DNA from: Microcaldota archaeon
GTDB lineage: Archaea > Micrarchaeota > Micrarchaeia > Micrarchaeales > Micrarchaeaceae
DNA length: 47,204 nt
NCBI GenBank assembly: GCA_028866905.1
Contig: JAGWHI010000005.1
Coordinates: 1-47,204 of the forward strand
Direction: 5' to 3'
Every line of letters begins with the position of its first letter. Within the stretch, counting starts at the first letter, position 1. Shown here one piece after another: positions 7,024 through 47,204 of this stretch. Below the pieces are notes generated by a model. The model was given only the letters and a program-made list of their open reading frames with translations. It was not told where the DNA came from and made no database searches. Made by a program: the position numbers and the translations under genes.

Positions 7024-8118
7024 ATCGCAAGCGCTGCCGGTGGGATCGTACTTATACTTCTGATAATAGTGGCAGCGCTGCTGCTCCTTAACATCGGCGG
7101 CTTCAGGTCCACGCTCAACCAGGTGATAGGCAACTACAGGACGCCAACAGTGTACAACAACACCAACTTCCCGCAGAACTACACCACTGTGTCCACCACG
7201 TCAACATCGACAACATCAACGATAAACTACAGCCAGCAGTACCTTGACAACTACATGCTCGGCCTGATAAACCAGGATAGGAACAAGTACGGCCTCTCAA
7301 ATGTAACGCTGTCGCTCGAGCCCTCGGCACAGCAGCACTCGCAGAGCATGCTCCAGTACGGATACTTCAGCCACTGGGACATATTCGGCATGAAGCCCTA
7401 CATGCGCTACACGCTTCTCGGCGGCACTCAGGGAGTTTCAGAGAACGTCGCATACAACCAGTCCACAGAGAAGTCGTGCATAGGGCAATCATGCACCGTC
7501 AGCGGCGCTCTGAACATAACCGAAGCGCTGAAGGCCATGGAGTACAGCATGATGTACAACGACCTGGCGTGCTGCAACAACGGCCACCGCGACAACATAC
7601 TCGACCCGCACCACAACCAGGTGAGCATAGGTATAGCGTACAACGGCAGCACGGTCTACCTGACGCAGGACTTCGTGGACAACTACATCAACTGGACAAG
7701 CGGCACGCCGACGTTCCAGAACAGCAGGATTTATCTGAAGGGCACAATGCTCTACGGGATGAACATCACGCAGGTAGAGATAGGCTACGAGCCGACGGTG
7801 TCAACAATGACGATAGGCCAGCTTGACAACACGTCGCACTACGGTTACCCGGACACAGTTGCGGGGGTTGTGAGCAACAGCAGGTACTACTACCCCAACC
7901 TCACCACAATAACCGCTAGCGCCTATAACATAGCCGGGACCACATTCGACATAGAATTCGGCCTGGGCAATCTGACCCAGAAGTACGGCGCAGGGGAATA
8001 CACCGTCCTGCTGTTCATGCAGCCGCTTGCGGCGTCCTCGAGCAACCCGTTCGTAGGCGCATCCTACACGATATTCATCAACGCGAGCGGCTCATCGTAC
8101 GTGCCGTTCAACATCTGA
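7024..8118 (+). CDS. Secreted or membrane-anchored CAP/SCP-domain protein (5' end abnormal)
   Basis: The protein has an N-terminal hydrophobic helix, a short Thr/Ser linker (STTSTSTSTTST), a CAP domain with the family's core (LINQDRNKYGL, HSQSMLQYGYFSHWD, NGHRDNILDPHHNQVSIGIAY), and a C-terminal beta-rich extension of about 120 residues. CAP proteins (YkwD-like in bacteria) act outside the cell; their biochemical role in archaea is unknown. The hydrophobic segment (IVLILLIIVAALLLLN) is only complete if translation begins upstream of the first usable codon in frame, a GTG at 7069. The in-frame codons from 7015 to 7068 contain no ATG, GTG or TTG. I place the start at ATC 7024, because CGTGGT sits 3 nt upstream, the same spacing as before the ATG at 24443. 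The alternative is a one-base frameshift near 7041 joining a TTG at 7020 (Leu-His-Arg-Lys-Arg) to this frame. Confidence 0.8.
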   Translation: MASAAGGIVLILLIIVAALLLLNIGGFRSTLNQVIGNYRTPTVYNNTNFPQNYTTVSTTSTSTTSTINYSQQYLDNYMLGLINQDRNKYGLSNVTLSLEPSAQQHSQSMLQYGYFSHWDIFGMKPYMRYTLLGGTQGVSENVAYNQSTEKSCIGQSCTVSGALNITEALKAMEYSMMYNDLACCNNGHRDNILDPHHNQVSIGIAYNGSTVYLTQDFVDNYINWTSGTPTFQNSRIYLKGTMLYGMNITQVEIGYEPTVSTMTIGQLDNTSHYGYPDTVAGVVSNSRYYYPNLTTITASAYNIAGTTFDIEFGLGNLTQKYGAGEYTVLLFMQPLAASSSNPFVGASYTIFINASGSSYVPFNI

Positions 8119-11127: not shown

Positions 11128-12069
11128 TTGGCAGATTCTTTCGAGAAGGCAAGGGAGCGAATGCTCAAGGGCACAAGGGCCGAGATAAAGGAGACATACT
11201 CCAACGAGGAGCACGCCCTGATGCAGGCGATAAACGCATACCTAGACACATCCAAGTCGTTCAACCTGGCGTTCGAGCGCCTGAGCGAATGGTTCGGCAT
11301 ATACTATCCCGAGGTTAAGGTGCAGAACCCTCTGACTCTGGCAAGGCTCGCCCACATAATCGATGCGGGCATCAGCGAGGAATCGGTGAAGGCCGCCGTA
11401 GGTGATGCAAAAACAGGGGACGAGATATTCAAGGAGATGTCATCCGCGATGGGCAGGAAGCCGAACGATGACGAGAAGCGAGCTGTCAGCATATTCGCTG
11501 AGACCTGCCTGCACCTCGCCAACTCTTTGGAGTACATGGACGCTTACCTCAAGGTGGCCGCAGAGAGGATACTTCCCAACACCACCTACCTTACCGACGA
11601 GAAGATAGCAGCGGAACTCCTAGCAAAGGCTGGCTCTCTGGAGAGGCTTGCGACAATGCCTGCCAGCACCATACAATTGCTCGGCGCGGAGAAGGCGCTA
11701 TTCAAGCACATAAAGTTCGGGAGCAAGCCGCCCAAGTACGGCGTGCTGTTCAAGCTCCAGGAGGTGAGCGGCGCGCCAAAGGAGATGAGGGGAAGGATCG
11801 CAAGGGCGTATGCGACCAAGATAAGCATAGGCCTGAAGGGCGACTTCTACAGCAAGAGGTTCATAGCAGAGAAGCTTAAGGCAGACCTTCAGAAGAGCAT
11901 AGAGAAGATAAAGGCCTCCCCGCCGAGGGAGAAGAAGCCCGAGCCGCCGCAGGAAAGGCGCCAGTTCAGAAGGCCGGGGTTCCAGCAGAGGCAGCAGCAT
12001 GGAAGGCCCCAGGGCGGCAGGGGCCGCAACAGCGGCAGGGGCGGAGCGCGCTTCAGAAATTCCGCATAA
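11128..12069 (+). CDS. nop5: Nop5 (Nop56/58-like) C/D-box RNP core protein
   Basis: A 313-residue protein with the central coiled coil (about 90-180) and the Nop domain signature LLAKAGSLERLATMPAS followed by GAEKALFKHIKFGSKPPKYG. The rest of the Nop domain (GRIARAYATKISIGLKGDF) precedes a basic tail with RGG/RG repeats (GRPQGGRGRNSGRGG) that may contact RNA. Nop5 holds fibrillarin and L7Ae on C/D-box guide RNAs that direct 2'-O-methylation of rRNA and tRNA. The N-terminal fibrillarin-binding domain is short compared with other archaea. Fibrillarin is not in the window. The start is a TTG at 11128 with AGTGAT 4-9 nt upstream. The next gene begins 9 nt after the stop and may be co-transcribed. 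Confidence 0.92.
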   Translation: MADSFEKARERMLKGTRAEIKETYSNEEHALMQAINAYLDTSKSFNLAFERLSEWFGIYYPEVKVQNPLTLARLAHIIDAGISEESVKAAVGDAKTGDEIFKEMSSAMGRKPNDDEKRAVSIFAETCLHLANSLEYMDAYLKVAAERILPNTTYLTDEKIAAELLAKAGSLERLATMPASTIQLLGAEKALFKHIKFGSKPPKYGVLFKLQEVSGAPKEMRGRIARAYATKISIGLKGDFYSKRFIAEKLKADLQKSIEKIKASPPREKKPEPPQERRQFRRPGFQQRQQHGRPQGGRGRNSGRGGARFRNSA

Positions 12070-12077
12070 AACGCAAT

Positions 12078-13826
12078 GTGATATTGTTGCATGCAAAACA
12101 GCAGTCAACGATGGAGTACCTCCTTACGTACGGATGGTCTCTCATAGTGATTGTTGTAGTGCTCACCGCGCTATTCTCGCTCGGAATCTTCAACAAGTCA
12201 CAGGTCTTCGCAAGCGCCTGCCTGGCGCAACCCGGCTTCTTCTGCAGCAAGCCGGTACTCAACACCACAGGTTCGCTTGTCATAACCGTAGGCCACGTCG
12301 GCGGCGGTCCAATAACTGTGACATCGCTTGGATGCACCAATTCCTCCGCAACGCCTAGACTGCAGGGGATCAAGAGCATAGTGCTGGTCTCGGGCGAATC
12401 CGTGCCTGTAGTGGTCAACTGCCCTGTGCAGTCCAATTCTATAGGCACCCAATTCACAGGTTCGGTATGGATAGGGTACAACCAATCAGGGTTGGGGGGC
12501 CAGGAAGCTAACATCGCCACAATATCCACGGCAGTGGCAACCGCAGCGCCACTTGGCCAGACCGGCACCGGCAGCGCAGGTGGCGGCACCACGTCCACAA
12601 CCACATCCACCTCAACGACATCCACCTCGACATCCACGACCAGCACCAGCACGACATCGACGACCTCTACCTCAACCAGCACCACCTCCACTTCAACAAG
12701 CACTACCACCTCAACTACCTCAACAACATCGACATCGACCTCAACAAGCACATCTACTACATCAACAAGCACCAGTACATCGACGACATCTACGTCGACA
12801 TCTACCTCCACGTCTACGTCAACGTCAACCACCACTTCCACTTCCACCACCAGCACTATACCAATGACCTACAACCCGACATGCGGTTCGTATCCTGGCC
12901 CTGTAACGTTCTCATCTACAACGACGCTCACGTGCAGCGTGGTCAGCTCGCAGTCGATAACGATAAATTCCGGCGTCACTGTAGATGAGCACGGCAACTA
13001 CATGCAGGCGAACACCATATTTACCAATGCGGGAACAATCACCGACACGTACGACGGCGGCACTGGAGGAGCGGCAGGGCAGGGGACTAGCGGCAGCGGC
13101 GGCTCGGGAGGTTCAGTCGCCACAAGCCCGACAAGCAGAGCCGCCCACTATTATTCAGGGACGACATTGAAGGGAGGTAATGGCGGTGTCGGCGGAGGTG
13201 CTGGAGGCGCAGGTCCGAGCAACGGCGGCAACGGAGGAGCCGGCGGCAACGGAGGTGGAATCGTTGAGATATATGCAGGAACATTCAACAATCAAGGGTC
13301 CATAACCGTGGCAGGCTCCAACGGCGGCAACGGGCAAAACGGACCGAGCGGCAACTCCTGTGGCGGTGCGTATGGCTGTAACAGCGGCGCTGGAGGAGGA
13401 GGAGGCGGCGGCGCAGCCGGAAGCGGAGGCACCATATTCATAGCATATTCAAGTTCCATAACTCCCGGTACGCTGACGGCTATTGCAGGAACTCCGGGAA
13501 CTGGAGGAGGCGGAGGCGGCGCTGCATACGTGTGCTCCAGCTATTATGGTGTCTGTGGCTATAACGGCGGCGGAGGCAGCGGCGGGAACGACGGAGGAGG
13601 CGGAGGCAGCGGAGGCGGGTCGATAAACCTTTGCTGCCATCCGAACTATTGTTATAGCTCGCTCACAGGCGGCAACGGTGGAGCTCCTGTGCCTCCAAGC
13701 GGTGTCGGCGGTGTGGATAGCAACAACTATGTAAACTACTGCGGCCTTTCAGCTGCATCGGGCACCTCTGGTACATGGACCGCTACGGCCGGCCAGATCA
13801 CAGAGGTAAGCGGATGGGTGCCATAG
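12078..13826 (+). CDS. Pilin-like surface protein, divergent short head with Thr/Ser stalk and Gly-rich tip (paralog C)
   Basis: The 582-residue protein starts at GTG 12078, 9 nt after Nop5. Residues 1-30 form a class III signal peptide: a short pre-peptide ending in Lys-Gln, then QSTMEYLLTYGWSLIVIVVV, with Gln as +1 and Glu at +5. A compact head (about 35-165) has four cysteines and is unlike the head of its four paralogs in this window. Residues 171-260 are exclusively Thr and Ser. The tip (261-582) begins NPTCGSYPGPVTFSS and continues as Gly-rich repeats with GGGIVEIYAGTFNNQG, ending GWVP. Class III peptides are cut by an EppA/PibD-type peptidase and assemble pilus-like fibres or anchor in the membrane. 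The tip fold is inferred to be a beta-solenoid. Function is unknown; adhesion or host-cell contact is a reasonable guess. Confidence 0.82.
   Translation: MILLHAKQQSTMEYLLTYGWSLIVIVVVLTALFSLGIFNKSQVFASACLAQPGFFCSKPVLNTTGSLVITVGHVGGGPITVTSLGCTNSSATPRLQGIKSIVLVSGESVPVVVNCPVQSNSIGTQFTGSVWIGYNQSGLGGQEANIATISTAVATAAPLGQTGTGSAGGGTTSTTTSTSTTSTSTSTTSTSTTSTTSTSTSTTSTSTSTTTSTTSTTSTSTSTSTSTTSTSTSTSTTSTSTSTSTSTSTSTTTSTSTTSTIPMTYNPTCGSYPGPVTFSSTTTLTCSVVSSQSITINSGVTVDEHGNYMQANTIFTNAGTITDTYDGGTGGAAGQGTSGSGGSGGSVATSPTSRAAHYYSGTTLKGGNGGVGGGAGGAGPSNGGNGGAGGNGGGIVEIYAGTFNNQGSITVAGSNGGNGQNGPSGNSCGGAYGCNSGAGGGGGGGAAGSGGTIFIAYSSSITPGTLTAIAGTPGTGGGGGGAAYVCSSYYGVCGYNGGGGSGGNDGGGGGSGGGSINLCCHPNYCYSSLTGGNGGAPVPPSGVGGVDSNNYVNYCGLSAASGTSGTWTATAGQITEVSGWVP
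12588..12857 (+). repeat. 90-codon Thr/Ser coding repeat (stalk of paralog C)
   Basis: All 90 codons are Thr (ACN) or Ser (TCN/AGC), giving an imperfect 3-6 bp tandem repeat at DNA level. It is the longest of the five stalks (others 41, 39, 32 and 46 codons). Repeat-driven slippage would change length in whole codons, and the region could serve as a recombination point between head and tip modules. Confidence 0.9.
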
Positions 13827-13841
13827 GGCTAAAAATGGAGT

Positions 13842-14759
13842 TCAGCGGTTCCTGAGCTTCCCGTACTCCTTCCTCCTGTGGGAGATGCTCTGCTGCACCT
13901 GCTCGGTTATCGCATTGAACGAATCCGAGGAGCGGAGCATCGATGGCGGCGCCCTGTGCCATATCCACTTGAGGAATTCCTCGTTGCTGCTGGATATCGC
14001 TTCCAACAGGTTGGCCGGCTTGCTCACATCTATCCCAACGTCCCGCGCGCAAGACAGCCTGTTGTTTATGGATTCCAAGGAGTGCGATAGCAGGTTCCTG
14101 TCGTCCGTCATGCCGAAGGTGAGTATGTTGTGAAGCACGTAGTCCGGGTCTATGGATGCGTGCTCCTCATAGCTGCGCAGCTTCCCCATTAGGTCCTTTA
14201 CCACAAGGAGCTCGTCCACGTTTGGGAATGTACCGCACTTGTAGTGCATGTATTCCTTGCCAAGCTTTATCTCGAGCATGCCGAACTTCCATAGCCCCAT
14301 CGAGCTCATCCAATCGAGCATGACGTCGACCTTGCCGCCGATTTCGGGCATCTTGAGCTGTGGCTTGCCCGCTATGGTTATCAGCATCCGCACCTTCTCG
14401 CACGAGCGGCTGTGTATGTTCTCGAAATCCCTGTCGCCGCTAAGAATCCCGAAATGCTTCTCCAAAGCGTGGTTGTATATGTGCTCATCGGAGTGCTGCT
14501 GTATGTTGTTCACGTGCTCGGCGACGAAGCCGTGCTTTTCGAACGACTTCCCAAGGCTCGGGGTCAGGTTCTCGTCGATCAGAACCTTCATCCAGTCCTG
14601 CTCCACTTCCACGGAATTGACGCTGAACATAGCATCGAGATCCCTGTAGCTGTCGACTACCACGCCATTGAAGCCGTGGCCGCGGCCATCCAGGAGCTGG
14701 TACATGATAGGCTCAGCGCAAGCGCTGGGAAACGGGTCCTCGCCTATCAGGAACTTCAT
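13842..14759 (-). CDS. PIN-like (DUF5615/Mut7-C type) nuclease domain protein
   Basis: A 305-residue protein. Residues about 58-130 match the DUF5615 PIN-like fold: MKVLIDENLTPSLGKSFEKH, then EHVNNIQQHSDEHIYNHALE and FGILSGDRDFENI, supplying the acidic residues (DEN, DE, D-x-D) expected of a metal-dependent nuclease. DUF5615 proteins are usually short and often toxin-like partners of small antitoxins. This one has a 57-residue N-terminal extension and a 170-residue C-terminal region I do not recognise. An alternative start at the ATG at 14588 would give a typical DUF5615 N-terminus, but the longer frame has normal codon use and an upstream promoter region. No antitoxin gene is adjacent. The gene ends 16 nt from, and convergent with, paralog C, and is divergent from paralog A. 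Confidence 0.7.
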   Translation of the reverse strand: MKFLIGEDPFPSACAEPIMYQLLDGRGHGFNGVVVDSYRDLDAMFSVNSVEVEQDWMKVLIDENLTPSLGKSFEKHGFVAEHVNNIQQHSDEHIYNHALEKHFGILSGDRDFENIHSRSCEKVRMLITIAGKPQLKMPEIGGKVDVMLDWMSSMGLWKFGMLEIKLGKEYMHYKCGTFPNVDELLVVKDLMGKLRSYEEHASIDPDYVLHNILTFGMTDDRNLLSHSLESINNRLSCARDVGIDVSKPANLLEAISSSNEEFLKWIWHRAPPSMLRSSDSFNAITEQVQQSISHRRKEYGKLRNR

Positions 14760-14849: not shown

Positions 14850-17198
14850 TTGGCAGAAAGAACAAATGATGCAAAGCTCCAATCAGCCCTCGAGTATCTG
14901 GTCACCTACGGCTGGGCTCTTGTTATAATCGCTGTTGCGGCAGTCCTGCTTTACGCTTACATAAACTCTCCAGGCCAGGTCACTTCGTCGTCGTGCAACT
15001 TCGTGCAGGGAGCGTACTGCAATGACATGGTTCTGGGAACCAACATAACCACCCACCAGACCGTGGTTGCGTTCTACCTGACGAACATACAACAGTACCC
15101 GATAGAAAGCCCGACGATATACGCGAACGTGAACGGCACGAACTCCACTGGCAATGCATGCAAACCAAACTTCGTTCTGGCAGGCGGCTCCATCATTTGC
15201 ATACTCAACCTTCCAGTCACGACGACACTCGGCGCATTGGTGTCAGGGAACGTGTACCTTAAGGCGAAATACTGCGGGCTTGTGAACATACCGAACTCTG
15301 CTGCATCGTGCGCAGCCGCGCCGTACCAGACATTCCTTGGCAGCTTCGTCGGCCATGCGCAACCCGTAGTCAATCCCAATGTTACTCTCTCCATAACCGC
15401 CAATACACTGAGGCCACCGGCCAACAACCAGAAGGATGCGCTGTTCGTTCATGTAAAACTGCTGGGGTATCCTCTGAACGCAGCGACTGTGAATCTCACA
15501 ACAAACAATTCAGGCTACACCGTATCGCCGAACCCTGTAAGATCAAACACCACAGGCATCGCTCTTTCGTACATCAACAGCACAATCGTAGGGAATGTCA
15601 TCGTGACCGCAAACTATTCCGGTACACTTGCCAACATCACCCTCGACTTCCTTCCCGTGTCGTACATAGGCTTCGGGCTTCCGAGCTATTCCAGCAGCGT
15701 CTGCGGCACGTCCCCAATAATAACAATAGACGGAACAAACTACGACTATGCACAGCTTACGTCACAACTGTCATTCGCAACCGGTTCGTCGCACAACTAT
15801 TGCATAATATCCCCCGCATGCTCGAACGGCAATACCCAGTACATCTTCAACAGCATAGTGATCGGAGGCGTCACCTACACCAACCAGTGCGGGATAATAA
15901 ACGTAAACGGAAACACGACCATAGTGATACTGCCGACCGTCCAATACCACCTGTCGGAATCGGCCAACCCGAACTTCGGTGGCACTGTGAGTCCCGGCAG
16001 CGGATGGTTCGACAGCGGGAGCCCGGTCACGATAAACGAGATCACGAACCCCGGCTGGTTCTTCAACGGATGGACCGGCAGCCCATACTCCGGCGCGTCG
16101 ACATCGGACACCTTCACGATAACAGCCCCTGCAACAGAGACCGCTGGCTTCTACAGCACTACTACAACCACGACGACTTCAACATCAACCAGTACTTCCA
16201 CAACCACATCGACATCTACTTCGACCTCCACCTCTACAACTACATCGACTTCAACATCTACAACAACCACATCAACAATAGCCCAGACCTACAACCCACC
16301 AGGCGGGAACTTCAACGGAGACATAATATACAGCTCAAGCACTCAGCTCACAAGCTCGGCTATAGCTTCAAATATGATACTGGTTGAAACCGGTGTAACG
16401 GTAAACGAAAATGGAAACTATCTGGAAGGCAACGTATCATTCTATAACTACGGAACAGTGACTGACGACTACGATGGCGGTGCAGGCGGAGCAGGCGGAT
16501 ACGTCAATGCAGGCAGTGTTTGCTACGAAGGAACAGGGTACGTTAGCAGCGACTATTCTCCAAATGGCGTTGGAGGTACAGCTGGCAGGTCAAGGACCTC
16601 ACGCTACCTTTCTACAACTTTAACTGGTGGAACCGGGGGCACCGGCGGCCAGACTGGCCAATGGTCATGCTGGGCGATCCAAAATGGCGGTCCAGGCGGC
16701 CTTGGCGGAGGTATTGTTGAAATCTACACCTACAATCTTGTAAACTCAGGGTCAATAAGCGCAAGCGGTTTCAATGGCGGAGCCGGGGGCAACGGATTCT
16801 ACATCCAAAGAAATTCTTTTGCACTTTCCCCCAACGGAGGCGCTGGTGGAGGGACAGGGGGAAGTGGTGGAACAGTATTCATAGGGAACACTATACCAAT
16901 AAGTAATACTGGAACTATACAAGCAAATGGCGGTGTAGGTGGAAAAGGGGGTGAGGGTGGCTATGACACAGGGAGCGGGTGCATTACTTATGGCGGTGCC
17001 GGAGGGACAAACGCAGGCGGAGGCGGCAGCGCAATAGCAAGTTGTGGTGCTGGCAACTGCCTTACACAGAATACAAACGATTGCAGCGGCGGCGCAGGTG
17101 GCGGTGGAGCAGCTGGCGGTGTTGGTAGTGGTAACGGGGCTAACGGAAGCGGAACTGGAAGCAGCGGTCAAGTAATAGAAAAATATTGGGTCAGTTAA
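14850..17198 (+). CDS. Giant pilin-like surface protein with Big/InlB-like head, Thr/Ser stalk and Gly-rich tip (paralog A)
   Basis: A 782-residue protein starting at TTG 14850, with GGGGAG just upstream. The class III signal peptide has pre-peptide AERTNDAKL, then Gln11 as +1, Glu15 as +5 and the hydrophobic helix YLVTYGWALVIIAVAAVLLY. The head (40-435) includes a Cys-rich beta domain, an invasin-like Ig segment (about 190-270: VHVKLLGYPLNAATVNLTT), and a divergent InlB-type repeat (about 365-435: GGTVSPGSGWFDSGSPVTIN, WFFNGWTGSPYSG). The stalk (436-476) is only Thr and Ser. The tip (477-782) is Gly-rich, with a GGGIVEIYTYNLVN repeat, and ends KYWVS. Many N-x-S/T sequons suggest N-glycosylation. 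The head is nearly identical to that of paralog B. Expected location: cell surface, as adhesin or fibre subunit. Confidence 0.85.
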   Translation: MAERTNDAKLQSALEYLVTYGWALVIIAVAAVLLYAYINSPGQVTSSSCNFVQGAYCNDMVLGTNITTHQTVVAFYLTNIQQYPIESPTIYANVNGTNSTGNACKPNFVLAGGSIICILNLPVTTTLGALVSGNVYLKAKYCGLVNIPNSAASCAAAPYQTFLGSFVGHAQPVVNPNVTLSITANTLRPPANNQKDALFVHVKLLGYPLNAATVNLTTNNSGYTVSPNPVRSNTTGIALSYINSTIVGNVIVTANYSGTLANITLDFLPVSYIGFGLPSYSSSVCGTSPIITIDGTNYDYAQLTSQLSFATGSSHNYCIISPACSNGNTQYIFNSIVIGGVTYTNQCGIINVNGNTTIVILPTVQYHLSESANPNFGGTVSPGSGWFDSGSPVTINEITNPGWFFNGWTGSPYSGASTSDTFTITAPATETAGFYSTTTTTTTSTSTSTSTTTSTSTSTSTSTTTSTSTSTTTTSTIAQTYNPPGGNFNGDIIYSSSTQLTSSAIASNMILVETGVTVNENGNYLEGNVSFYNYGTVTDDYDGGAGGAGGYVNAGSVCYEGTGYVSSDYSPNGVGGTAGRSRTSRYLSTTLTGGTGGTGGQTGQWSCWAIQNGGPGGLGGGIVEIYTYNLVNSGSISASGFNGGAGGNGFYIQRNSFALSPNGGAGGGTGGSGGTVFIGNTIPISNTGTIQANGGVGGKGGEGGYDTGSGCITYGGAGGTNAGGGGSAIASCGAGNCLTQNTNDCSGGAGGGGAAGGVGSGNGANGSGTGSSGQVIEKYWVS
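16155..16277 (+). repeat. 41-codon Thr/Ser coding repeat (stalk of paralog A)
   Basis: An uninterrupted run of Thr and Ser codons between the InlB-like repeat and the Gly-rich tip. The 52 bp at 16108-16159, just before and into this run, are identical to 36589-36640 in paralog D, although the rest of the two heads differ at many synonymous positions. Confidence 0.88.
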
Positions 17199-17350: not shown

Positions 17351-17389
17351 TTTCGAACCGCCCTTCCTAGCAGATACTTGGTGAAATTG

Positions 17390-19351
17390 ATGTCTGGAAA
17401 CGAGATACAGATAGAGGTTGGCGTGGACCAGAACCTGATTAACAACATTAACAACAAGAGGCCGGAGATAAAGGAGGAGACAGAGGCCGCAAGATCCTTG
17501 GATCCGATACTGGCGCCATACCACAGGACCATAGAGGAAATGGAAAAGATGCCTGTGATAGAGAAGACGATGACCGTCTGCCCGGAGTGCAAGCTCATAG
17601 TCCAGGGCATAATCTACAAGGACGGGGACAACGTGATGATAAGGAAGTTCTGCCCAGAGCACAAGTGGAATGTCGAGAAGTATTGGGAGGACTACGACAT
17701 GTACATGAAGATGCGCAGGTACAACTACTACGGCAGAGGCTTCGACAACCCGAACTACCTCAACAAGGGGGCGATGTGCCCGTTCGACTGCGGAATGTGT
17801 GAAAGGCACAAGTCGCACACAGGTCTTGCCAATGTGGTTGTCACCAACAGGTGCCACCTCAGCTGCTGGTACTGCTTCTTCTACGCCAAGGAGGGAGAGT
17901 CGATATACGAGCCGAGCGTGGACGAGCTTGACAAGATATTCAAGAACCTCAGGAACCAGAAGCCGATCCCTGCGAACGCCATCCAGATAACTGGCGGAGA
18001 GCCGACAATGCACCCGAAGATAGAGGAGATTATACTGAAGGCCAAGGAGGCCGGCTTCGACCAGATACAGCTCAACACCACAGGCATAAACCTCGGGCTC
18101 GATCAGGAGTTCGCGAAGAGGCTCAGGCACGCCGGCGCGGGAACGCTCTACATGAGCTTCGACGGCGTGAGCGCGAGGGCCAACCCGAAGAACCACTGGG
18201 AGGCGCCGCTCGCGATCGATGCGGCTAGGAAGGCAGGCATAAACATAGTGCTTGTGCCTACAGTCATAAGGACGATAAACGACCATGAGCTCGGCTCGAT
18301 AATCAACTTCGCGCTGAACAACACGGACGTGATAAAGGCGGTGAACTTCCAGCCCGTGTCGCTGGTGGGTCGCATGCCAACAAGGCTGCGCGAGAAGCAG
18401 AGGATCACGATACCCGGCGCCATAAAGCTCATAGAGCAGCAGACCAACGGCGTTATAGCGAAGGAGGATTGGTTCTCAGTGCCATACGTCGGAGGAATAA
18501 ACAAGTTCATAGAGGCGCTCACAGGCCAGTACAAGTACGACCTCTCGATACACTTCGCTTGCGGCGCAGGGTCGTACATATTCCTGGACAAGGACAACAA
18601 GATAATACCGCTGACAAGCTTCGTCGACGCGGCCGGTCTCCTGGAGCACCTGCAGCGTGCTGTCAACGAGATGCAGGACAAGAACAAGTTCGACAGGCGC
18701 ATGATAGCCATAAAGTACATGCTGTCGATCAACAAGTTCATAGACAAGAAGAACCAGCCAAAGTCGCTGAACTTCGGAAAGATGCTCATGTCGCTCTTCC
18801 TGAAGCACGACTTCTCTGCGTTGGGCGCCTTCCAGCTGAAGACGCTGTTCCTCGGAATGATGCACTTCCAGGACGAGCACACCTACGACATACACAGGGT
18901 GGAGAAGTGCGACATACATTATGCCCAACCGGACGGGGAGGTTCTCCCGTTCTGCACTTTCAACGTGTTCCCGGAGGTATACAGGGACAAGATCCAGAGG
19001 CAGTACAGCATCCCGTCGAGGGAGTGGGAGTCTATGCACCCAGGCTGGAACTACCCGAAGGACAAGTACACCAGGAACATAAAGGAGCTCACGGCCTCGC
19101 AGGTCTACAGGAAGACCTACGGCGAGATGATCGACTACTTCGCGCTGCCGATAAACGGGAGCAAGCCGGTGTCAAACTTCGCCAACCTTAAGTTCGAGGA
19201 CGCGCCCAAGATGGCTGCAGCCCCGAAGCAGGAGAAGCACGAGGAGCACGACGGATGCGGCTGCGGAGGAAACTGCGGCTGCGGCGCAGAGGCGTCCGAA
19301 TCCGATGGCTGCGGATGCGGTTCCGGAGGATGCGGCTGCGGAGGCCAGTGA
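17390..19351 (+). CDS. Radical SAM protein of the tetraether lipid synthase (Tes, COG1964) family
   Basis: A 653-residue protein. It has an N-terminal rubredoxin-like site (C64-P-E-C67, C88-P-E-H), a second cluster (C130-x3-C134-x2-C137, CPFDCGMC), the radical SAM triad C155-x3-C159-x2-C162 (CHLSCWYC) and the SAM-binding ITGGEPTMHP. This cysteine layout matches the family of MJ0619, which couples two lipid chains to form the tetraether (GDGT) core. A different C-C bond-forming or methylating reaction cannot be excluded within COG1964. The last 35 residues are unusual: a Gly/Cys tail with eight cysteines in C-G-C pairs. The start is the ATG at 17390, preceded by GGTGA; an upstream in-frame TTG at 17378 overlaps that site. 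An unknown gene follows after 28 bp and is probably co-transcribed. Confidence 0.82.
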   Translation: MSGNEIQIEVGVDQNLINNINNKRPEIKEETEAARSLDPILAPYHRTIEEMEKMPVIEKTMTVCPECKLIVQGIIYKDGDNVMIRKFCPEHKWNVEKYWEDYDMYMKMRRYNYYGRGFDNPNYLNKGAMCPFDCGMCERHKSHTGLANVVVTNRCHLSCWYCFFYAKEGESIYEPSVDELDKIFKNLRNQKPIPANAIQITGGEPTMHPKIEEIILKAKEAGFDQIQLNTTGINLGLDQEFAKRLRHAGAGTLYMSFDGVSARANPKNHWEAPLAIDAARKAGINIVLVPTVIRTINDHELGSIINFALNNTDVIKAVNFQPVSLVGRMPTRLREKQRITIPGAIKLIEQQTNGVIAKEDWFSVPYVGGINKFIEALTGQYKYDLSIHFACGAGSYIFLDKDNKIIPLTSFVDAAGLLEHLQRAVNEMQDKNKFDRRMIAIKYMLSINKFIDKKNQPKSLNFGKMLMSLFLKHDFSALGAFQLKTLFLGMMHFQDEHTYDIHRVEKCDIHYAQPDGEVLPFCTFNVFPEVYRDKIQRQYSIPSREWESMHPGWNYPKDKYTRNIKELTASQVYRKTYGEMIDYFALPINGSKPVSNFANLKFEDAPKMAAAPKQEKHEEHDGCGCGGNCGCGAEASESDGCGCGSGGCGCGGQ

Positions 19352-19379
19352 TCCTCGCTAACGATTATAGGTTGTCACA

Positions 19380-20081
19380 ATGGACCATAGGGAAGTAGTC
19401 CACGAAAGCCAGTACCAGAAGGACCTCAAGCAGCAGGCTGAGGCCGAGGAGAAGGAGTACGACGACTACGTTGTGGAGGATGGCAAGAGGTTCAGGGTGC
19501 CGTACAAGATGATAAAGAGGGTCGTGTTCCGCGATGTCAGCCAGAAGGAGATGGTCGACCTCGAGCACGCAGCAAGGCTCCAGTACAGGCTCATGCTGCA
19601 GGATCCGATAATCAAGGCCAGCATAAACTACGTCAAGTCCACGATAACGGTACTGTTCAACCCTGACACGGCCGAGAATAGGAGGGAGAAGATCAGCGTA
19701 GACCAGCTCATAAAATTCCTCGCGGACGAGGGCGTCCATGTCGACAGGTCCAAGATGGATCTCGAGGACTACGACTATTACAAGAACTTCTACTCATACG
19801 CTTTCAACCCCCCATCGATAAGGGAGCGCCCGCCTTATGGGTACAGCATGAAGCAGTGGAAGGACATGAAGGACGAGTACCTGAAGAAGTACGAGGAGGG
19901 CAACGTAAAGAAGCTCGAGAAGTTCCAACAGTGGCGCAAGGAGTACGAGGCCACGCACTGGAATGCAGAGCAGGCGGAAGGCCAGAATGATAATGGAAAG
20001 AAGCCGCTCCTTGCCGGGATATTCTCAAGGAAGAAGCCGAAGGCGAACAAGGACAAGGGCTTCTGGTTCCACGGTGTCTGA
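19380..20081 (+). CDS. Unknown protein downstream of the radical SAM gene
   Basis: A 233-residue soluble protein. The middle (about 45-115) reads as alternating helix and strand, with SINYVKSTITVLFNPD followed by VDQLIKFLADEGVHVD. This resembles the ferredoxin-like beta-alpha-beta pattern of heavy-metal-associated domains, but it lacks their Cys-x-x-Cys. The N-terminus is charged and the C-terminus is a Lys/Glu-rich helix followed by a basic tail ending KGFWFHGV. No signal peptide or membrane helix is present. It starts at ATG 19380, 28 bp after the Tes-like gene, so a role as a partner or substrate-delivery protein for that enzyme is possible. I do not recognise the family. Confidence 0.75.
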   Translation: MDHREVVHESQYQKDLKQQAEAEEKEYDDYVVEDGKRFRVPYKMIKRVVFRDVSQKEMVDLEHAARLQYRLMLQDPIIKASINYVKSTITVLFNPDTAENRREKISVDQLIKFLADEGVHVDRSKMDLEDYDYYKNFYSYAFNPPSIRERPPYGYSMKQWKDMKDEYLKKYEEGNVKKLEKFQQWRKEYEATHWNAEQAEGQNDNGKKPLLAGIFSRKKPKANKDKGFWFHGV

Positions 20082-20083
20082 GG

Positions 20084-20431
20084 CTAGTAAGCCCCAGTGC
20101 CCCGCTCCTCTTTCTTGTACTTCTCCCAGTTAACAATGTGCAATATCTCCAGTATCTGGGTGGCGTCCAAGTTGACCTCCTTTCCACCGATCTCGAACTT
20201 GAACACCTTTGCATAAGCGCTTGTCCTCTCGGACTCGTTCACCTCCCTCGGCCTGTCGTGGTGGTAGCCCTTGATTATGAACTTCGCCTGATCCTCAAAT
20301 TTCGCGACGTTCTGTATGTCGGCGAACCTGAAACTGACCGTATCGTACACAAGCATAGATTTCTCGTGCACCACGCTGCCAGCTCCCATCACGCTCTGCT
20401 GTCCATGGCTCTTGTTTTTGTTTCCGCTCAT
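20084..20431 (-). CDS. Small unknown protein at the end of the pheST operon
   Basis: About 115 residues. A polar N-terminus (MSGNKNKSHGQQ) is followed by a beta-rich central part (SMLVYDTVSFRFADIQNVAKF, QAKFIIKGYHHD) and helices at the C-terminus (DATQILEILHIVNWEKYKKE). The start is set at the ATG at 20431, because GTGAG lies immediately upstream in the Shine-Dalgarno position; the GTG at 20440 is part of that site. The gene begins 16 nt after the pheT stop in the same direction, so it is likely co-transcribed. The function is unknown. It converges with the unknown gene at 19380, with 2 bp between the stop codons. Confidence 0.72.
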   Translation of the reverse strand: MSGNKNKSHGQQSVMGAGSVVHEKSMLVYDTVSFRFADIQNVAKFEDQAKFIIKGYHHDRPREVNESERTSAYAKVFKFEIGGKEVNLDATQILEILHIVNWEKYKKEERGTGAY

Positions 20432-29120: not shown

Positions 29121-31430
29121 CTACGGGATCCATCCTGATTTCCAATAGACATTTCCACTAGACCCTGTGCCAACCGCGTAGCAACCGGCCGATGAGGTCG
29201 ATTGGTATGTGATACCGCCGCACGAGCCCCCACCGCCCTGCCCGCCGTAGCCGCAGTAATCGGTACTGCACACGTTGCCTCCGCATGTGTACGGTCCGAA
29301 GCTTCCGCAGCCTGACGGGTTCGAGGTGCATGCGGTTCCTCCAGTTCCCGCCGCGCCGCCAGAATAGCTAACCGTACCCTGCGAAATTAGCGTGCCGTAA
29401 CCTACCAATATCGTGCCACCGCTGCCCCCAGTGCCAGCGCCTCCGCCACCGCTTGGATAAGGCGCCCCTCCAGGAGCACCAGACACGTTCAGCAGTCCTG
29501 CATTATTGAAAGCGCCTGCGTATATCTCGACTATACCACCTCCAGCCCCACCAGGTCCGCCGCCTCCGGCGCAATACTCACTGCCCGCGCCACACCTTCC
29601 ACTGGACGCAACCGCATCGCCCCCGCCCTGGCCTCCGCCGTTGCCGCCGGGGCCTCCAGCTATCGCCAAGCTAAAGAATGCGCTTATCCTCGATATGCCG
29701 GAAGCGCCATCTCCACCGGCTTGTCCAGTAATGCAGGCTGTGGAGAAGCCGTAATAGGAGGTAGGCGCGCACCCCTGGCAGCCTCCAGAACCTCCAGATC
29801 CGCCATCATGACTGTCGGTTACGGTGCCGGAATTTGCGAAGGTGCCGTTTGCCTGCAGGAAGTACCCGTTCTCGTTTATCGTGATTCCTGAGTTGATTGT
29901 TATGTCTGAAGACGCAATCACATTGCATGTCAGCGTAGTGCTGGCACTGTAGGTTATGCTGCCAGAGAACGTTCCGCATGACGGGTTCGCAGGTATGGTG
30001 GTGGTTGTCGAAGTAGATGTCGACGTGCTAGTCGATGTTGAAGTACTGGTCGAGGTCGACGTGCTTGTAGACGTACTGGTAGATGTGGATGTAGTTGTGG
30101 TAGTGGTCGTACTGTAGAAACCTGCAGTCTCAGTGGCAGGGGCTGTTATCGTGAAGGTGTTCGATGTCGATGCGCCTGCGTACGGGCTGCCGGTCCACCC
30201 GTTGAAGAACCAGCCGGGGTTCGTGATCTCGTTTATCGTTACAGGGTTCCCGCTGTTGAACCACCCGCTGCCGGGACTTACAGTGCCTCCGAAATTCGGG
30301 TTGGCAGATTCCGACAGGTGGTATTGGACGGTCGGCAGTATCACTATGGTCGTGTTTCCGTTTACGTTTATTATCCCGCACTGGTTGGTGTAGGTGACGC
30401 CTCCGATCACTATGCTATTGAAGATGTACTGGGTATTGCCGTCCGAACATGCTGGGGATATCACGCAGTAGTTGTGCGACGAACCGGTTGCGAATGACAG
30501 TTGCGATGTCAGTTGGGAATAGTCGTAGTTAGTGCCGTCAATCGTTATTATCGGTGATGTTCCGCAGACGCTGCTGGAATAGCTCGGAAGCCCGAAGCCT
30601 ATGTACGACACAGGGAGGAAGTCGAGTGTGATGTTGGCAAGTGTACCGGAATAGTTCGCTGTCACGATGACATTCCCTACGATTGTGCTGTTGATGTACG
30701 AAAGAGCGATGCCTGTGGTGTTCGACCTCACAGGGTTAGGCGATAACGTATATCCCGAATGGTTAGTTGTAAGGTTCACTGTGGCCGCATTCAGCGGATA
30801 ACCAAGAAGCTTAACGTGCACGAAGAGCGCATCCTTCTGGTTGTTGGCCGGCGGCCTGAGCGTGTTTGCAGTTATTGATAGGGTTACGTTTGGATTTACC
30901 ACTGGTTGCGCATGTCCAACGAAGCTGCCTAGGAAAGTCTGGTACGGTGCGGCTGCGCACGACGCAGCAGAGTTCGGTATGTTCACAAGCCCGCAGTACT
31001 TCGCCTTAAGGTATACGTTCCCCGACACCAATGCGCCGAGTGTCGTCGTGACTGGAAGGTTGAGTATGCAAATGATGGAGCCGCCTGCCAGAACGAAGTT
31101 TGGTTTGCATGCATTACCTGTGGAGTTCGTTCCGTTCACGTTCGCGTATATCGTTGGGCTTTCTATTGGATACTGTTGTATGTTCGTCAGGTAGAATGCA
31201 ACCACTGTCTGGTGGGTGGTTAGGTTTGTTCCCAGTACCATATCGTTGCAGTAGGCACCCTGCACGAAGTTGCACGACGATGAAGTGACCTGGCCCGGAG
31301 AGTTTATGTAGGCGTAAAGCAGGACTGCCGCTATCGCTATAATGACCAGCGCCCAGCCGTATGTGACCAGATACTCCAGCGCAGACTGCAGTCTCTTTCC
31401 CGATTCTTTGCTATTGAAGCTAATCACCAA
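29121..31430 (-). CDS. Giant pilin-like surface protein, near-twin of paralog A with a different tip (paralog B)
   Basis: About 769 residues, starting at TTG 31430 (or GTG 31427). The class III signal peptide has pre-peptide VISFNSKESGKRL, Gln15 as +1, Glu19 as +5 and the helix YLVTYGWALVIIAIAAVLLY. By eye, the head (to residue 439) differs from that of paralog A at only about a dozen positions over roughly 420. The Thr/Ser stalk is residues 440-478. The tip (479-769) begins NPSCGTFSGSITYSAST, is Gly/Cys-rich, shares GGGIVEIYAGAFNNAG with the others, and ends KSGWIP. In contrast to the head, the tip differs strongly from that of paralog A. A TATA-like CTTTTTATTTATTAG lies at about 31457-31472. 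Role: surface adhesin or fibre, inferred. Confidence 0.85.
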   Translation of the reverse strand: MVISFNSKESGKRLQSALEYLVTYGWALVIIAIAAVLLYAYINSPGQVTSSSCNFVQGAYCNDMVLGTNLTTHQTVVAFYLTNIQQYPIESPTIYANVNGTNSTGNACKPNFVLAGGSIICILNLPVTTTLGALVSGNVYLKAKYCGLVNIPNSAASCAAAPYQTFLGSFVGHAQPVVNPNVTLSITANTLRPPANNQKDALFVHVKLLGYPLNAATVNLTTNHSGYTLSPNPVRSNTTGIALSYINSTIVGNVIVTANYSGTLANITLDFLPVSYIGFGLPSYSSSVCGTSPIITIDGTNYDYSQLTSQLSFATGSSHNYCVISPACSDGNTQYIFNSIVIGGVTYTNQCGIINVNGNTTIVILPTVQYHLSESANPNFGGTVSPGSGWFNSGNPVTINEITNPGWFFNGWTGSPYAGASTSNTFTITAPATETAGFYSTTTTTTTSTSTSTSTSTSTSTSTSTSTSTSTSTSTTTTIPANPSCGTFSGSITYSASTTLTCNVIASSDITINSGITINENGYFLQANGTFANSGTVTDSHDGGSGGSGGCQGCAPTSYYGFSTACITGQAGGDGASGISRISAFFSLAIAGGPGGNGGGQGGGDAVASSGRCGAGSEYCAGGGGPGGAGGGIVEIYAGAFNNAGLLNVSGAPGGAPYPSGGGGAGTGGSGGTILVGYGTLISQGTVSYSGGAAGTGGTACTSNPSGCGSFGPYTCGGNVCSTDYCGYGGQGGGGSCGGITYQSTSSAGCYAVGTGSSGNVYWKSGWIP
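29997..30113 (-). repeat. 39-codon Thr/Ser coding repeat (stalk of paralog B)
   Basis: Only Thr and Ser codons, mostly alternating Ser-Thr, between the InlB-like repeat and the tip. It is followed by ATA-CCG/CCT-GCG-AAC-CC (Ile-Pro-Ala-Asn-Pro), the same junction as in paralog E at 47164. Confidence 0.88.
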
Positions 31431-31608
31431 CTGATCTAAACAACAACTAAAACCATCTAATAAATAAAAAGCTTTGTCAAATTGTTGGCCACAGCGCCCC
31501 AAAATGCAAAAACGGAATACCAAAACAATGTTGGAAGAAAACATAATACTTAAAAGGGTTCACCGCAAAGCATTTATTGGGACCAGGGTTTGTTCTAATA
31601 GTGTGGCA

Positions 31609-35327: not shown

Positions 35328-37619
35328 ATGATAGGCGACCACACACCAACCGGGAAGCTCCAATCGTCCCTGGAGTACCTCATTACGTACAGTTGGGCGC
35401 TCATAGTCCTGGCCATAGCTGTGGTGCTGCTCTACGCCTACCTGCACTCCCCCAGCCAGATCGCACCGTCATCGTGCAACTTCGTGGACGGCGCGTACTG
35501 CAACGACCTGATAGTGGGAACGAACATCACCACGCACGGCACGATAGCGGCGTTCTACCTGACTAACATACAGAGCTACCCCCTAGAGAGCCCGACCCTG
35601 TACGCCAACGTCAACGGCACCAACTCCACTGCATCGCCGTGCAGGCCCAGCTTCGTCCTATCTGGCGGGTCCATCATATGCATAATCAACGTCCCGCAGA
35701 GGAGCACCATAGGCGACCTTATGAGCGGCAACCTCTACCTGGCGGCAAGGTATTGCGGATTCGTTTCTATACCTAATTCAGCGTCATCTTGCGCAGCCGC
35801 GCCATACCAGACGTATGTCGGAAGCTTTGTGGGCCATGCAGAGCCCGCGATAAACCCCAATGTAACCATCTCGATAACGGCCAACACGCTAAGGCCCCCG
35901 GCCAACAACCAGAAGGATGCGCTCTTCGTGCACGTTAAGCTCCTGGGATACCCTCTGAACGCGGCTACCGTGAACATAACGACCAACAGGTCCGGATACA
36001 CCATAGCGCCCAACCCGCTAAGGACAAACACTACGGGCATAGCGCTTTCTTACATAAACAGCACCCTGGTGGGCAACGTGCTGGTCACTGCCAACTATTC
36101 AGGCACCATTGCAAATGTAATCCTCGACTTCCTTCCTGTGTCATACATAGGGTTCGGCCTCCCGGGATACTCGTCAACCATATGCGGTACGTCTCCCATA
36201 CTCACTATTGACGGCTCCAACTACGACTACCAGCAGCTTTCGCAAAGCATAGCGTTCCCGACTGGTGATTCGATATCGTACTGCGTGATATCCCCCGCAT
36301 GCTCCAGCGGCGGCACGCAGTATGTCTTCAACAGCATCGTAATAGGCGGCGTCACATACACCAACCAGTGCGGGATAATAAACGTAAACAGCAACACGAC
36401 TGTGGTAATCCCCCCGACGACCCAGTACTACCTGACTGAATCTGCCAATCCGAATTTCGGCGGTACTGTAAGTCCCGGCAACGGTTGGTTCGACAGCGGA
36501 AACAGCGTGACGATAAGGGCGGTGAACAACCCTGGCTGGTTCTTCAACGGGTGGAGCGGCAGCCCTTACGCAGGCGCATCGACGTCCAACACCTTCACGA
36601 TAACAGCCCCTGCAACAGAGACCGCTGGCTTCTACAGCACCACGACCACAACCACTAGCACGACTTCGACAAGCACATCGACATCGACATCCACGTCAAC
36701 CACCACTTCGACGTCTACGTCTACAACATCCATACTTCCGCCCGTATACAATCCCAGCTGCTCGACGTCCGGAGGCACATTCACGACTGCTGCGCCAGTG
36801 ATATTCTCTGCAAGCAACACGCTCACATGCAACGTGATATCCGGCCAGAGCATAACCATACAGGCGCAGGCAACGGTAAACGAGAACGGGTATTTCATGC
36901 AGGCAAACACGATATTCAGCAACTACGGCGCGGTTACAGACACGAAATACTCCGCCGCTGGCGGAACGGCATGCCATGAGTGCTATGGTGGCGCGGGGGG
37001 CATAGGACAAACCAAATACAGCGCGTATACTAGCACCTACATCAGCGGAGGCGGTGGCGGCGGTGGCGGCGGCTCAGGCGGAAACGGCGGCTCCGGATGC
37101 GGCGGCTCAGGAGGATCGGGCGGAATCGGCGGCTCAGGCGGGGGGATAGTCGAGATATATTCATACAGCTTCGCAAACTACAATACGATAACAGTGTCTG
37201 GCGGAAACGGGGGCAACGGGTATTCGGGCTCTAGCGGTTCAGGCGACGCCTGCGGATCGTGCGGTCCAGGCGGAGGCGGGGGAGGAGGCGGCGGTGGCGG
37301 CGGAGGAACGATAATGCTTGGCTACACCAGCGACGTTTCTACCGGCACGCTCCTATATTCCGGCGGCTCAGCTGGCGGCGGAGGGAGCAGCGTAGGAAAC
37401 GCTGGATACTCAAGCTCTGGCTCTGGCGCGGGCTCTGGAGCCGGAGGATACGGCGGAGGCGGAGCATACGGGGGCGACAGCGAAGTCCAATGGTGGAACT
37501 GCTGCTGGTACTACACCTGCTACTATGTCTACGGGCAATCAGGATTCGGAGGAGGGACAGGCGGAACAATCCCATCGGGGACCGTCGGAGGAGTCATAGT
37601 CCAGTCCTGGACTCCTTGA
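35328..37619 (+). CDS. Giant pilin-like surface protein, diverged head (paralog D)
   Basis: A 763-residue protein with ATG start at 35328. The class III signal peptide has pre-peptide IGDHTPTGKL, Gln12 as +1, Glu16 as +5 and helix YLITYSWALIVLAIAVVLLY. The head (to residue 436) aligns throughout with those of paralogs A, B and E but has many substitutions, for example in IAPSSCNFVDGAYCNDLIVG. The Ig-like segment (VHVKLLGYPLNAATVNITTN) and InlB-type repeat (GGTVSPGNGWFDSGNSVTIR) are conserved. The Thr/Ser stalk is residues 437-468, the shortest of the five. The tip (469-763) is extremely Gly-rich (GGGGGGGGGSGGNGGSGCGG) with the shared GGGIVEIYSYSFAN repeat, and ends VQSWTP. Surface adhesin or fibre role inferred. 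Confidence 0.85.
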   Translation: MIGDHTPTGKLQSSLEYLITYSWALIVLAIAVVLLYAYLHSPSQIAPSSCNFVDGAYCNDLIVGTNITTHGTIAAFYLTNIQSYPLESPTLYANVNGTNSTASPCRPSFVLSGGSIICIINVPQRSTIGDLMSGNLYLAARYCGFVSIPNSASSCAAAPYQTYVGSFVGHAEPAINPNVTISITANTLRPPANNQKDALFVHVKLLGYPLNAATVNITTNRSGYTIAPNPLRTNTTGIALSYINSTLVGNVLVTANYSGTIANVILDFLPVSYIGFGLPGYSSTICGTSPILTIDGSNYDYQQLSQSIAFPTGDSISYCVISPACSSGGTQYVFNSIVIGGVTYTNQCGIINVNSNTTVVIPPTTQYYLTESANPNFGGTVSPGNGWFDSGNSVTIRAVNNPGWFFNGWSGSPYAGASTSNTFTITAPATETAGFYSTTTTTTSTTSTSTSTSTSTSTTTSTSTSTTSILPPVYNPSCSTSGGTFTTAAPVIFSASNTLTCNVISGQSITIQAQATVNENGYFMQANTIFSNYGAVTDTKYSAAGGTACHECYGGAGGIGQTKYSAYTSTYISGGGGGGGGGSGGNGGSGCGGSGGSGGIGGSGGGIVEIYSYSFANYNTITVSGGNGGNGYSGSSGSGDACGSCGPGGGGGGGGGGGGGTIMLGYTSDVSTGTLLYSGGSAGGGGSSVGNAGYSSSGSGAGSGAGGYGGGGAYGGDSEVQWWNCCWYYTCYYVYGQSGFGGGTGGTIPSGTVGGVIVQSWTP
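36636..36731 (+). repeat. 32-codon Thr/Ser coding repeat (stalk of paralog D)
   Basis: Only Thr and Ser codons. The upstream bases 36589-36640 are identical to 16108-16159 in paralog A. Bases from about 36567 to 36608 (TACGCAGGCGCATCGACGTC and following) also match paralog E near 46958-46998. Confidence 0.88.
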
Positions 37620-45577: not shown

Positions 45578-45720
45578 AGGTATATAAACGATGACTGGAT
45601 ACGTGGAGCTTCCCGATGGGCGTATCTAGGGGATCAATCGGCGATGCTGTGGAGAAAAGGTTTTTATTGGCTCCTGGAGTAAGTCATACCAGCGCGGGTA
45701 CGTCCGAGTAGTGAGAGCCT
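45578..45720. promoter_or_regulatory. Divergent promoter region of acdB and paralog E
   Basis: A minus-strand TATA (TTTATATACC, about 45578-45588) serves acdB. A plus-strand TATA-like GGTTTTTATTGG (about 45659-45670) serves paralog E. The 169-bp gap holds no tRNA or small gene that I can see. GTGAGAG at 45711-45717 is a Shine-Dalgarno-like site immediately before the ATA codon at 45721. Confidence 0.5.
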
Positions 45721-47204
45721 ATAGAAATATCAACCGGAAGAGCTAGGCAGCAGTCCGCTATGGAGTACCTAATAACGTACGGATGGGCGCTCGTGATAAT
45801 AGCTATTGCCATGGTGTTGCTCTACGCCTATATTAATTCACCGGGCCAGGTAGCGTCATCCTCCTGCAATTTCATCCATGGGGCATACTGCAACGATATG
45901 GTACTGGGAACAAACATAACCACCCACCAGACCGTGGTGGCGTTCTATCTCACCAACATCCAGGAATATCCAATAGAAAGCCCGATGATATATGCGAATG
46001 TGAACGGCACAAACTCTACAGGCAATGCATGCAAGCCGAACTTCGTGCTGGCTGGCGGATCCATAATCTGCATACTAAATCTCCCGGTAACCACCACCCT
46101 TGGCGCATTGGTGTCTGGGAACGTCTACCTCAAGGCCAAGTACTGCGGTCTGGTAAACATACCTAACTCTGCAGCCTCATGCGCAGCTGCGCCGTACCAG
46201 ACGTTTCTCGGAAGCTTTGTCGGACATGCCCAGCCTGTGATTAATCCCAATGTTACCATTTCGATAACAGCCAACACCCTAAGACCGCCGGCCAACAACC
46301 AGGGGGATGCGCTCTTCGTGCATGTGAAGCTCCTGGGATATCCGCTCAATGCCGCAACTGTGAACCTCACAACTAATAATTCGGGGTATACTGTATCTCC
46401 TAATCCCGTAAGATCGAATGCTACAGGAACTGCACTGTCGTACATCAACGGCACTACAGTCGGCAATGTCATCGTGACAGCAAACTATTCGGGGACCGTC
46501 GCCAACGTAATCCTTGACTTCCTGCCCGTGTCCTACATAGGAATCGGCCTGCCCGGATATTCGGCAAGCGTCTGCGGAACGTCGCCGATAATAACGATTG
46601 ACGGCACTAACTACGACTATGCCCAACTGACATCGCAACTGTCATTCGCAACCGGTTCGTCGCACAACTACTGCGTGATATCTCCTGCATGTTCGGACGG
46701 CGATACGCAGTACATCTTCAACAGCATAGTGATAGGCGGAGTGGCATACACCGACCAGTGCGGGATCATAAACGTAAACGGAAACACAACCATCGTGATA
46801 CTGCCAGCTACCCAATACCACCTCTCAGAATCGGCAAACCCGTCGTTCGGCGGTACTGTTAGCCCGGGCAATGGGTGGTTCAATAGCGGGAGCCCGGTCA
46901 CAATAAATGAGATTACGAACCCAGGCTGGTTCTTCAACGGGTGGACCGGCAGCCCGTACGCAGGCGCATCGACGTCCAACACCTTCACGATAACAGCTCC
47001 CGCCACAGAGACGGCCGACTTCTACAGCACCACAACGACCACTACGACATCAACATCGACCAGTACCTCTACTTCCACATCGACTTCTACGAGCACCTCA
47101 ACATCAACATCGACCAGTACATCCACCTCCACTACAACCAGCACTTCGACTACTACGACCACAATACCGGCAAACCCCTCATGCGGTACCTTCTCGGGCA
47201 GCGT
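45721..47204 (+). CDS. Giant pilin-like surface protein, truncated by window edge, with no standard start codon (paralog E)
   Basis: An open frame runs from after a TGA at 45712-45714 to the window end. The class III motif is present: Arg-Gln, then Gln-Ser-Ala-Met-Glu-Tyr-Leu with Glu at +5, and helix YLITYGWALVIIAIAMVLLY. Upstream of the ATG at 45760 (which is Met +4 of the motif) there is no ATG, GTG or TTG in frame. An ATA at 45721, following GTGAGAG, would give pre-peptide EISTGRARQ, the same length as in the paralogs. The head is intact, with no stop or frameshift, and is close to that of paralog B. Its stalk is residues 436-481. The tip begins NPSCGTFSGS exactly as in paralog B. It could be a silent donor copy, or use a non-AUG start. 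Confidence 0.8.
   Translation, partial: MEISTGRARQQSAMEYLITYGWALVIIAIAMVLLYAYINSPGQVASSSCNFIHGAYCNDMVLGTNITTHQTVVAFYLTNIQEYPIESPMIYANVNGTNSTGNACKPNFVLAGGSIICILNLPVTTTLGALVSGNVYLKAKYCGLVNIPNSAASCAAAPYQTFLGSFVGHAQPVINPNVTISITANTLRPPANNQGDALFVHVKLLGYPLNAATVNLTTNNSGYTVSPNPVRSNATGTALSYINGTTVGNVIVTANYSGTVANVILDFLPVSYIGIGLPGYSASVCGTSPIITIDGTNYDYAQLTSQLSFATGSSHNYCVISPACSDGDTQYIFNSIVIGGVAYTDQCGIINVNGNTTIVILPATQYHLSESANPSFGGTVSPGNGWFNSGSPVTINEITNPGWFFNGWTGSPYAGASTSNTFTITAPATETADFYSTTTTTTTSTSTSTSTSTSTSTSTSTSTSTSTSTSTTTSTSTTTTTIPANPSCGTFSGS
47026..47163 (+). repeat. 46-codon Thr/Ser coding repeat (stalk of paralog E)
   Basis: An uninterrupted run of Thr and Ser codons, 7 codons longer than in paralog B although both flanks code for nearly the same residues. 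This shows stalk length changing between close copies. Confidence 0.88.

Follow-up and report, generated by a model that had tools for sequence, protein, structure and literature searches.

The window, that is, the whole stretch of 47,204 nucleotides analysed here, corresponds to contig C2 of a genome of 885,590 bases in 31 contigs (90% complete). Gene C, the subject of this analysis, is accompanied in it by four paralogs, and Table 1 compiles the coordinates of these genes and of their features. The four paralogs follow the plan of gene C with Big_1 and InlB-like segments added between head and stalk; their Big_1 matches (E 1e-4 to 1e-5) lie below the Pfam cut-off, and Flg_new_2 was also matched. 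Paralog E reaches the edge of the contig, where window positions 47056-47202 are identical to C19:1-147. Given this exact overlap of 147 nucleotides, contig C19 very probably follows the window contig and holds the rest of paralog E, whose tip probably continues on C19:1-1059. The same contig carries, at 18302-20293 on the minus strand, a single open frame with a tandem pair of Gly tips behind a stalk, which is cut by the contig end.

Table 1. Coordinates of gene C and its parts, of the other window paralogs and the flanking genes, and of a pilin pair from genome G024.
Feature	Position	Strand	Description	Basis
Gene C	12078-13826	+	GTG start; 582 aa	
Gene C leader, VILLHAKQ	12078..12101	+	class III (prepilin) signal; register common to all paralogs	sequence
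Gene C mature N-terminal pilin helix, QSTMEYLLTYGWSLIVIVVVLTALFSLGIF	12102..12191	+	Glu at +5; helix 11-34 in the model	sequence; model
Gene C short pilin head	12192..12563	+	beta-sandwich in the model	homology; model; PDB matches
Gene C GTGSAGGG linker	12564..12587	+	residues 163-170; own short heads match until here and diverge after	
Gene C Thr/Ser stalk	12588..12857	+	residues 171-260	
Gene C Gly-rich tip module	12873..13823	+	317 residues, 30% Gly; predicted glycine-looped beta-solenoid	
Paralog D	14850..17198	+	long head (pilin, Big_1, InlB-like), stalk, Gly tip	
Paralog B	29121..31544	-	long head; Gly tip, its sister (100/100) on a short head in G192	
Paralog A	35328..37619	+	long head; Gly tip pairs with that of G012 C7	
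Paralog E	45715..47202	+	long head and stalk; ended by contig edge	
Upstream neighbour, Nop5-like	11128..12069	+	near a radical SAM-like gene in several relatives	sequence
Downstream flank, radical SAM-like	17378..19351	+		sequence
G024 pilin pair	L104:3238-4485 and L105		identical heads, different C-terminal parts	

Translation of gene C may begin at GTG 12078 or, alternatively, at a TTG further in. Its N-terminus bears the signature of a type IV pilin (QSTMEYLLTYGWSLIVIVVVLTALF), with a charged leader, Q-S-x-x-E and Glu at +5; the mature protein starts at residue 9 with QSTMEYL, a hydrophobic helix of about 20 residues follows the leader, and invariant positions are held in common with the paralogs. 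An earlier note on this DNA had described a head of about 135 residues without the Ig and InlB segments of the other four proteins, a Thr/Ser stalk of the same kind and a tip with common features. This anatomy is confirmed: the head measures about 130 residues, a Pfam search found no Big_1, InlB-type or Flg_new_2 domain in gene C, the stalk of 90 residues is about twice as long as those of the window paralogs (27-46 residues), and the tip contains NPTCG (266-270), INSGVTVDEHG (296-306), GGGIVEIYAG (392-401) and GWVP (579-582). Gene C combines a pilin module with an extra C-terminal module, the Gly tip that occurs on long and short heads, which is the composition of a modular pilin. It lies outside the long-head family, having no Big_1 or Flg_new_2 match and a head whose union with the long heads is rejected (see below). 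Elsewhere in the window, positions 7069-8118 of the plus strand encode a secreted-looking protein of another architecture, in which a Thr/Ser linker of the same kind as the gene C stalk is combined with an apparent CAP/SCP-type domain.

Gene C, paralog D and a gene at 13842-14759 lie between the Nop5-like and the radical SAM-like genes. In the flanks fetched for six relatives (G001, G002, G015, G027, G031 and G034), radical SAM motifs come after the nop5 gene and the site showed no pilin signal; G030 and G032 have there one pilin, named LamG-like from its sequence. The nop5/radical SAM site has thus received different modular pilins. The genome has three matches to T2SSE-type ATPases over the cut-off, one of them inside the pilin cluster of contig C19, and a match to Peptidase_A24 (prepilin peptidase) scores 21.7 bits against a cut-off of 26.5. 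Also in the window, at 38545-42150 on the minus strand, is a frame of 1201 aa that resembles family B DNA polymerases and has an apparent intein insertion at the YGDTDS motif (...LYGDS/IGRDS...VLVHN/TDS...).

The head of gene C had been called unrelated to those of the paralogs in the earlier note, and this description does not hold. In a search of its own genome, the closest matches to the head are C8:13498, C8:9547 and C19:11434 (59-65% identity), followed by about 20 more distant pilin-like matches that include the long paralogs at about 30% identity. Compared without the helix, the gene C head scores higher against three own long heads than all 500 shuffles (z 6-7), although the similarity is weak; an hhalign comparison of helix-less short-head and long-head profiles gave a non-significant E 0.05 with a probability of 1%. 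The two Cys following the helix are invariant in short and long heads. The head model, with pLDDT mostly 85-90, combines the helix with a beta-sandwich and has eight strands. Its two top PDB hits are the archaeal type IV pili 8fk7 and 8q30, with probabilities of 1.00 and 0.97 but E 1.5e-3 and TM 0.26-0.43. Taken together, the homologs, the shuffle scores, the invariant Cys and the PDB matches argue against an unrelated head: it is a pilin module of the type IV kind and probably distantly related to the first domain of the long heads.

One clade of the head tree unites the own long heads (100/100) and another the own short heads (99/99), among which gene C is the outgroup of its three relatives. 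Heads cluster by genome, with 17 label changes against 39.8 when shuffled. The head data reject a union of gene C with the own long heads (p 7e-5), and its union with the heads of G018 and G057 stays above rejection (p 0.087). The signal helix travels together with the head, since its identity is 66-69% to the short-head relatives versus 34-41% to the long paralogs. Protein identity within the genome is 92-99% for five of the six long heads and about 72% for paralog A; several long-head pairs are at or near saturation at synonymous sites (dN/dS about 0.01-0.1), and dS is near or above 1 for most head pairs. Runs of identical third positions are unexpectedly long, reaching 32 codons in B/E (p<0.0005) and occurring also in B/D and A/D, which suggests that gene conversion among the long heads is likely. 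Such conversion can contribute to the clustering by genome and to part of the tree incongruence described next.

The tip of gene C is 45-46% identical to the other window tips, and its scores against them lie 17-20 SD above those of 20-residue block shuffles, by which a compositional artefact is ruled out as the source of the similarity. Its closest relative is 53% identical. The Gly tip was found in 11 of the 301 genomes of the phylum, belonging to 6 of the 126 genera. A scan of the GTDB r220 collection that required the peptide GGGIVEIY found it at 12 loci, which all come from Micrarchaeota. Its carriers are long heads in G006, G012, G193 and G194 and short heads in G018, G057 and G192; both types of carrier occur in the genome of the window. 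One Gly-tip pilin of 876 residues is the same (99.96% DNA identity) at L083:397-3024 of G012 and L088:1132-3759 of G051, which are different listed species of one genus, pointing to recent transfer or shared contamination. In the tip model, a beta-solenoid-like core with loops rich in glycine is predicted confidently, and confidence is low for a stretch close to the end. No solved structure resembling it was found by sequence or fold, nor any sequence relative in PHROGs or viral contigs. Its fold resembles BFVD models (Foldseek E down to 2e-10, probability 1.00; TM-scores mostly 0.3-0.44) of collagen-like proteins of giant viruses and of unnamed proteins of uncultured phages, a likeness confined to the predicted fold.

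The tip tree is not clustered by genome (19 label changes against 19.5 when shuffled), and forcing the own tips to be monophyletic is rejected both without gene C (p 1.3e-4) and with it (p 3e-11). Three cross-genus tip pairs have a support of 100/99 or better: A/G012_C7, C5:26725/G006_C22 and B/G192_C14. The last of these (100/100) also crosses head types, as B has a long head and G192_C14 a short head of another family, with 23% head identity. Around gene C the tip tree is poorly resolved; the best grouping, with G018 and G057, is without support (30/13). The earlier note had proposed that the tip is mobile and that swapping would show in incongruent trees of helix, head and tip. In a reciprocal topology test (AU test) on 24 genes with both modules, the tip data reject the head topology (dlnL 506, p-AU 2.8e-8) and the head data reject the tip topology (dlnL 1632, p-AU 1.3e-5), so that the disagreement is found between head and tip, the helix going with the head. 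In cross-genus pairs, tips are 60-75% identical versus 23-49% for heads; in paralogs within a genome, heads are 77-99% identical versus 44-56% for tips.

The architectures of the own genes can be set beside these trees. Past GTGSAGGG, the four own short heads, which form one clade, carry four different C-terminal parts: a stalk and the Gly tip in gene C; a stalk followed by two apparent additional modules in C8:8119-10152; DUF2341 (E 6e-19), with no Thr/Ser run, in C8:12466-14058; and, in C19:10432-12198, a different part in which DUF2341 is at best a trace. The heads of C5:14510-16702 and paralog D are nearly identical (dS 0.65) and their tips differ, Gly_rich_2 versus Gly tip; by eye, similar Gly-rich ends are found on short heads in G012. 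The reciprocal AU rejection, the cross-genus and cross-head tip pairs and the four C-terminal parts on one head clade support the proposed mobility: the tip is an exchangeable module, and outer ends have been traded between carriers. Tip replacement occurred within the head clade of gene C, whichever member is the recombinant.

The Thr/Ser run had been nominated as the crossover point, and for this the one-contig genome G024 provides direct evidence. Two of its genes, 246 kb apart, share 80 identical nt ahead of the reading frame and 731 identical nt within it; divergence starts inside the Thr/Ser run, and the C-terminal parts differ, so that the pair illustrates cleanly a break of recent date. 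In the genome of the window, identity drops at the stalk (D/B and D/C5:14510) or at the end of the head (the C8 pair). C8:12466 joins its head to the DUF2341 part directly after GTGSAGGG without a Thr/Ser run, so the run is not required as a junction and is not the sole one. In this family a low-complexity stalk serves as a seam for recombination.

These results have to be weighed against other histories of gene C. A contender of some substance, which we regard as rather unlikely, is an old full-length lineage, in which short head and Gly tip are ancestral to gene C and G018/G057 and the C8 and C19 relatives had their tips replaced. Neither the head data (p 0.087) nor the tip data reject the grouping of gene C with G018/G057, and gene C branches outside its three own short-head relatives; yet the grouping has no positive support (30/13 in the tip tree), and swapping is needed anyway to account for the B/G192_C14 tip pair and the three remaining own short heads. 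Gene C may be the conservative member, with its own-genome relatives as the recombinants. Concerted evolution, by which the tips would be vertical and the heads homogenised per genome by gene conversion so that head trees follow genomes, seems to us improbable. It accords with the high identity of five of the six long heads and with the third-position runs, but dS near or above 1 for most head pairs speaks against it, and it leaves unexplained the sister tips on different head families (B and G192_C14), the different tip families on near-identical heads (C5:14510) and the G024 break.

The remaining explanations carry very little weight. Contigs C2 and C19 end in or near stalks, as might be expected if gene C were an assembly chimera joined within the low-complexity stalk; however, no exact string of at least 20 nt is shared between gene C and any of 12 sampled paralogs, and no 18-mer is repeated inside it. 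Since there is no overlap through which it could have been mis-joined, and the combination of short head and Gly tip is found again in G018, G057 and G192, a chimera is highly improbable and was rejected. We give as little credence to programmed variation by a shufflon or a diversity-generating retroelement. The constant N-terminus and variable C-terminus are like those of PilV shufflons (PMC9045228), but neither the tyrosine recombinase/phage-integrase family nor reverse transcriptase was matched in the 90%-complete genome, and neither silent tip cassettes nor inverted repeats of good quality were seen around gene C; the shufflon was rejected on the missing recombinase and inverted cassettes, and the retroelement on the missing reverse transcriptase. 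Least credible of all is an internal deletion of the Ig/InlB segment from a long paralog: tip and stalk are the same as in the long paralogs, but with its head and helix gene C falls in the short-head clade, and the head tree rejects this origin at the p-value given above for the union with the own long heads.

We consider it likely that gene C, from a Micrarchaeota archaeon, codes for a modular type IV pilin belonging to a family in which the carrier is conserved within each genome and tips have been recombined onto it at the carrier/stalk boundary or in the Thr/Ser run. This reading builds on the computed domain anatomy, homology, tree incongruence and stalk breakpoint of G024. In the proposed mechanism, a small beta head with its helix and class III signal would make up the carrier, which undergoes processing, stays anchored in the membrane and is built into a type IV filament. 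Between carrier and tip, the Thr/Ser stalk would serve as a flexible spacer; that it may be O-glycosylated is a guess from its composition. The Gly-rich beta-solenoid tip would be the exposed end and may bind ligands. The gene C product would accordingly be a candidate for filament assembly, adhesion and glycosylation. Carriers would stay conserved per genome because all parts must fit the same filament, and tips would form families that span genera and are recombined onto resident carriers, with joins at either of the two places. Gene C would represent a short carrier with a tip that is otherwise found on long (Ig and InlB) carriers in the genome of the window. We infer that recombination, rather than old shared descent, shaped the present gene C; its own event is old.

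More tentatively, Micrarchaeota may possess a genus-crossing pool of interchangeable pilus-tip adhesins, moved between co-occurring species and fixed on the carriers of each genome by recombination in or beside the stalk. If this is true, the tip pool could reset host or surface specificity. Within a single family, the exposed tips can be exchanged and the filament carrier is conserved apart from them, so that the part that possibly decides which partners or surfaces small host-associated archaea choose can be named, expressed alone and tested.

Modular type IV pilins have been described for PilB and PilC of Streptococcus sanguinis, where many architectures were listed and the grafting of modules onto pilins was proposed (PMC8179133). 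Like gene C, they combine a class III pilin module with an extra C-terminal functional module, and by this precedent the head would probably serve in the filament, with the tip as the functional module on the outside. In contrast to PilB and PilC, gene C is archaeal and has a long Thr/Ser stalk and a tip family without a Pfam match, and the exchange of tips rests here on incongruent trees, there on architecture lists. Archaeal pilins with class III signals and T2SSE-type ATPases have been surveyed, and DUF2341 proteins were predicted to be tip adhesins (PMC4858521); here DUF2341 rides on a close relative of the gene C head. In that census, modularity is emphasised for entire systems and not at the level of the individual pilin, and the terms ARMAN and Micrarchae are absent from its main text. 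In the PilV shufflon of I-complex plasmids, a constant N-terminal pilin part is joined to alternative C-terminal adhesin ends (PMC9045228), whereas in the gene C family separate genes hold the variants, and no invertible cassettes or recombinase were found. For the ARMAN-2-related Mia14, a role in contact with the partner has been proposed for type IV pili and LamG-like proteins (PMC5498576).
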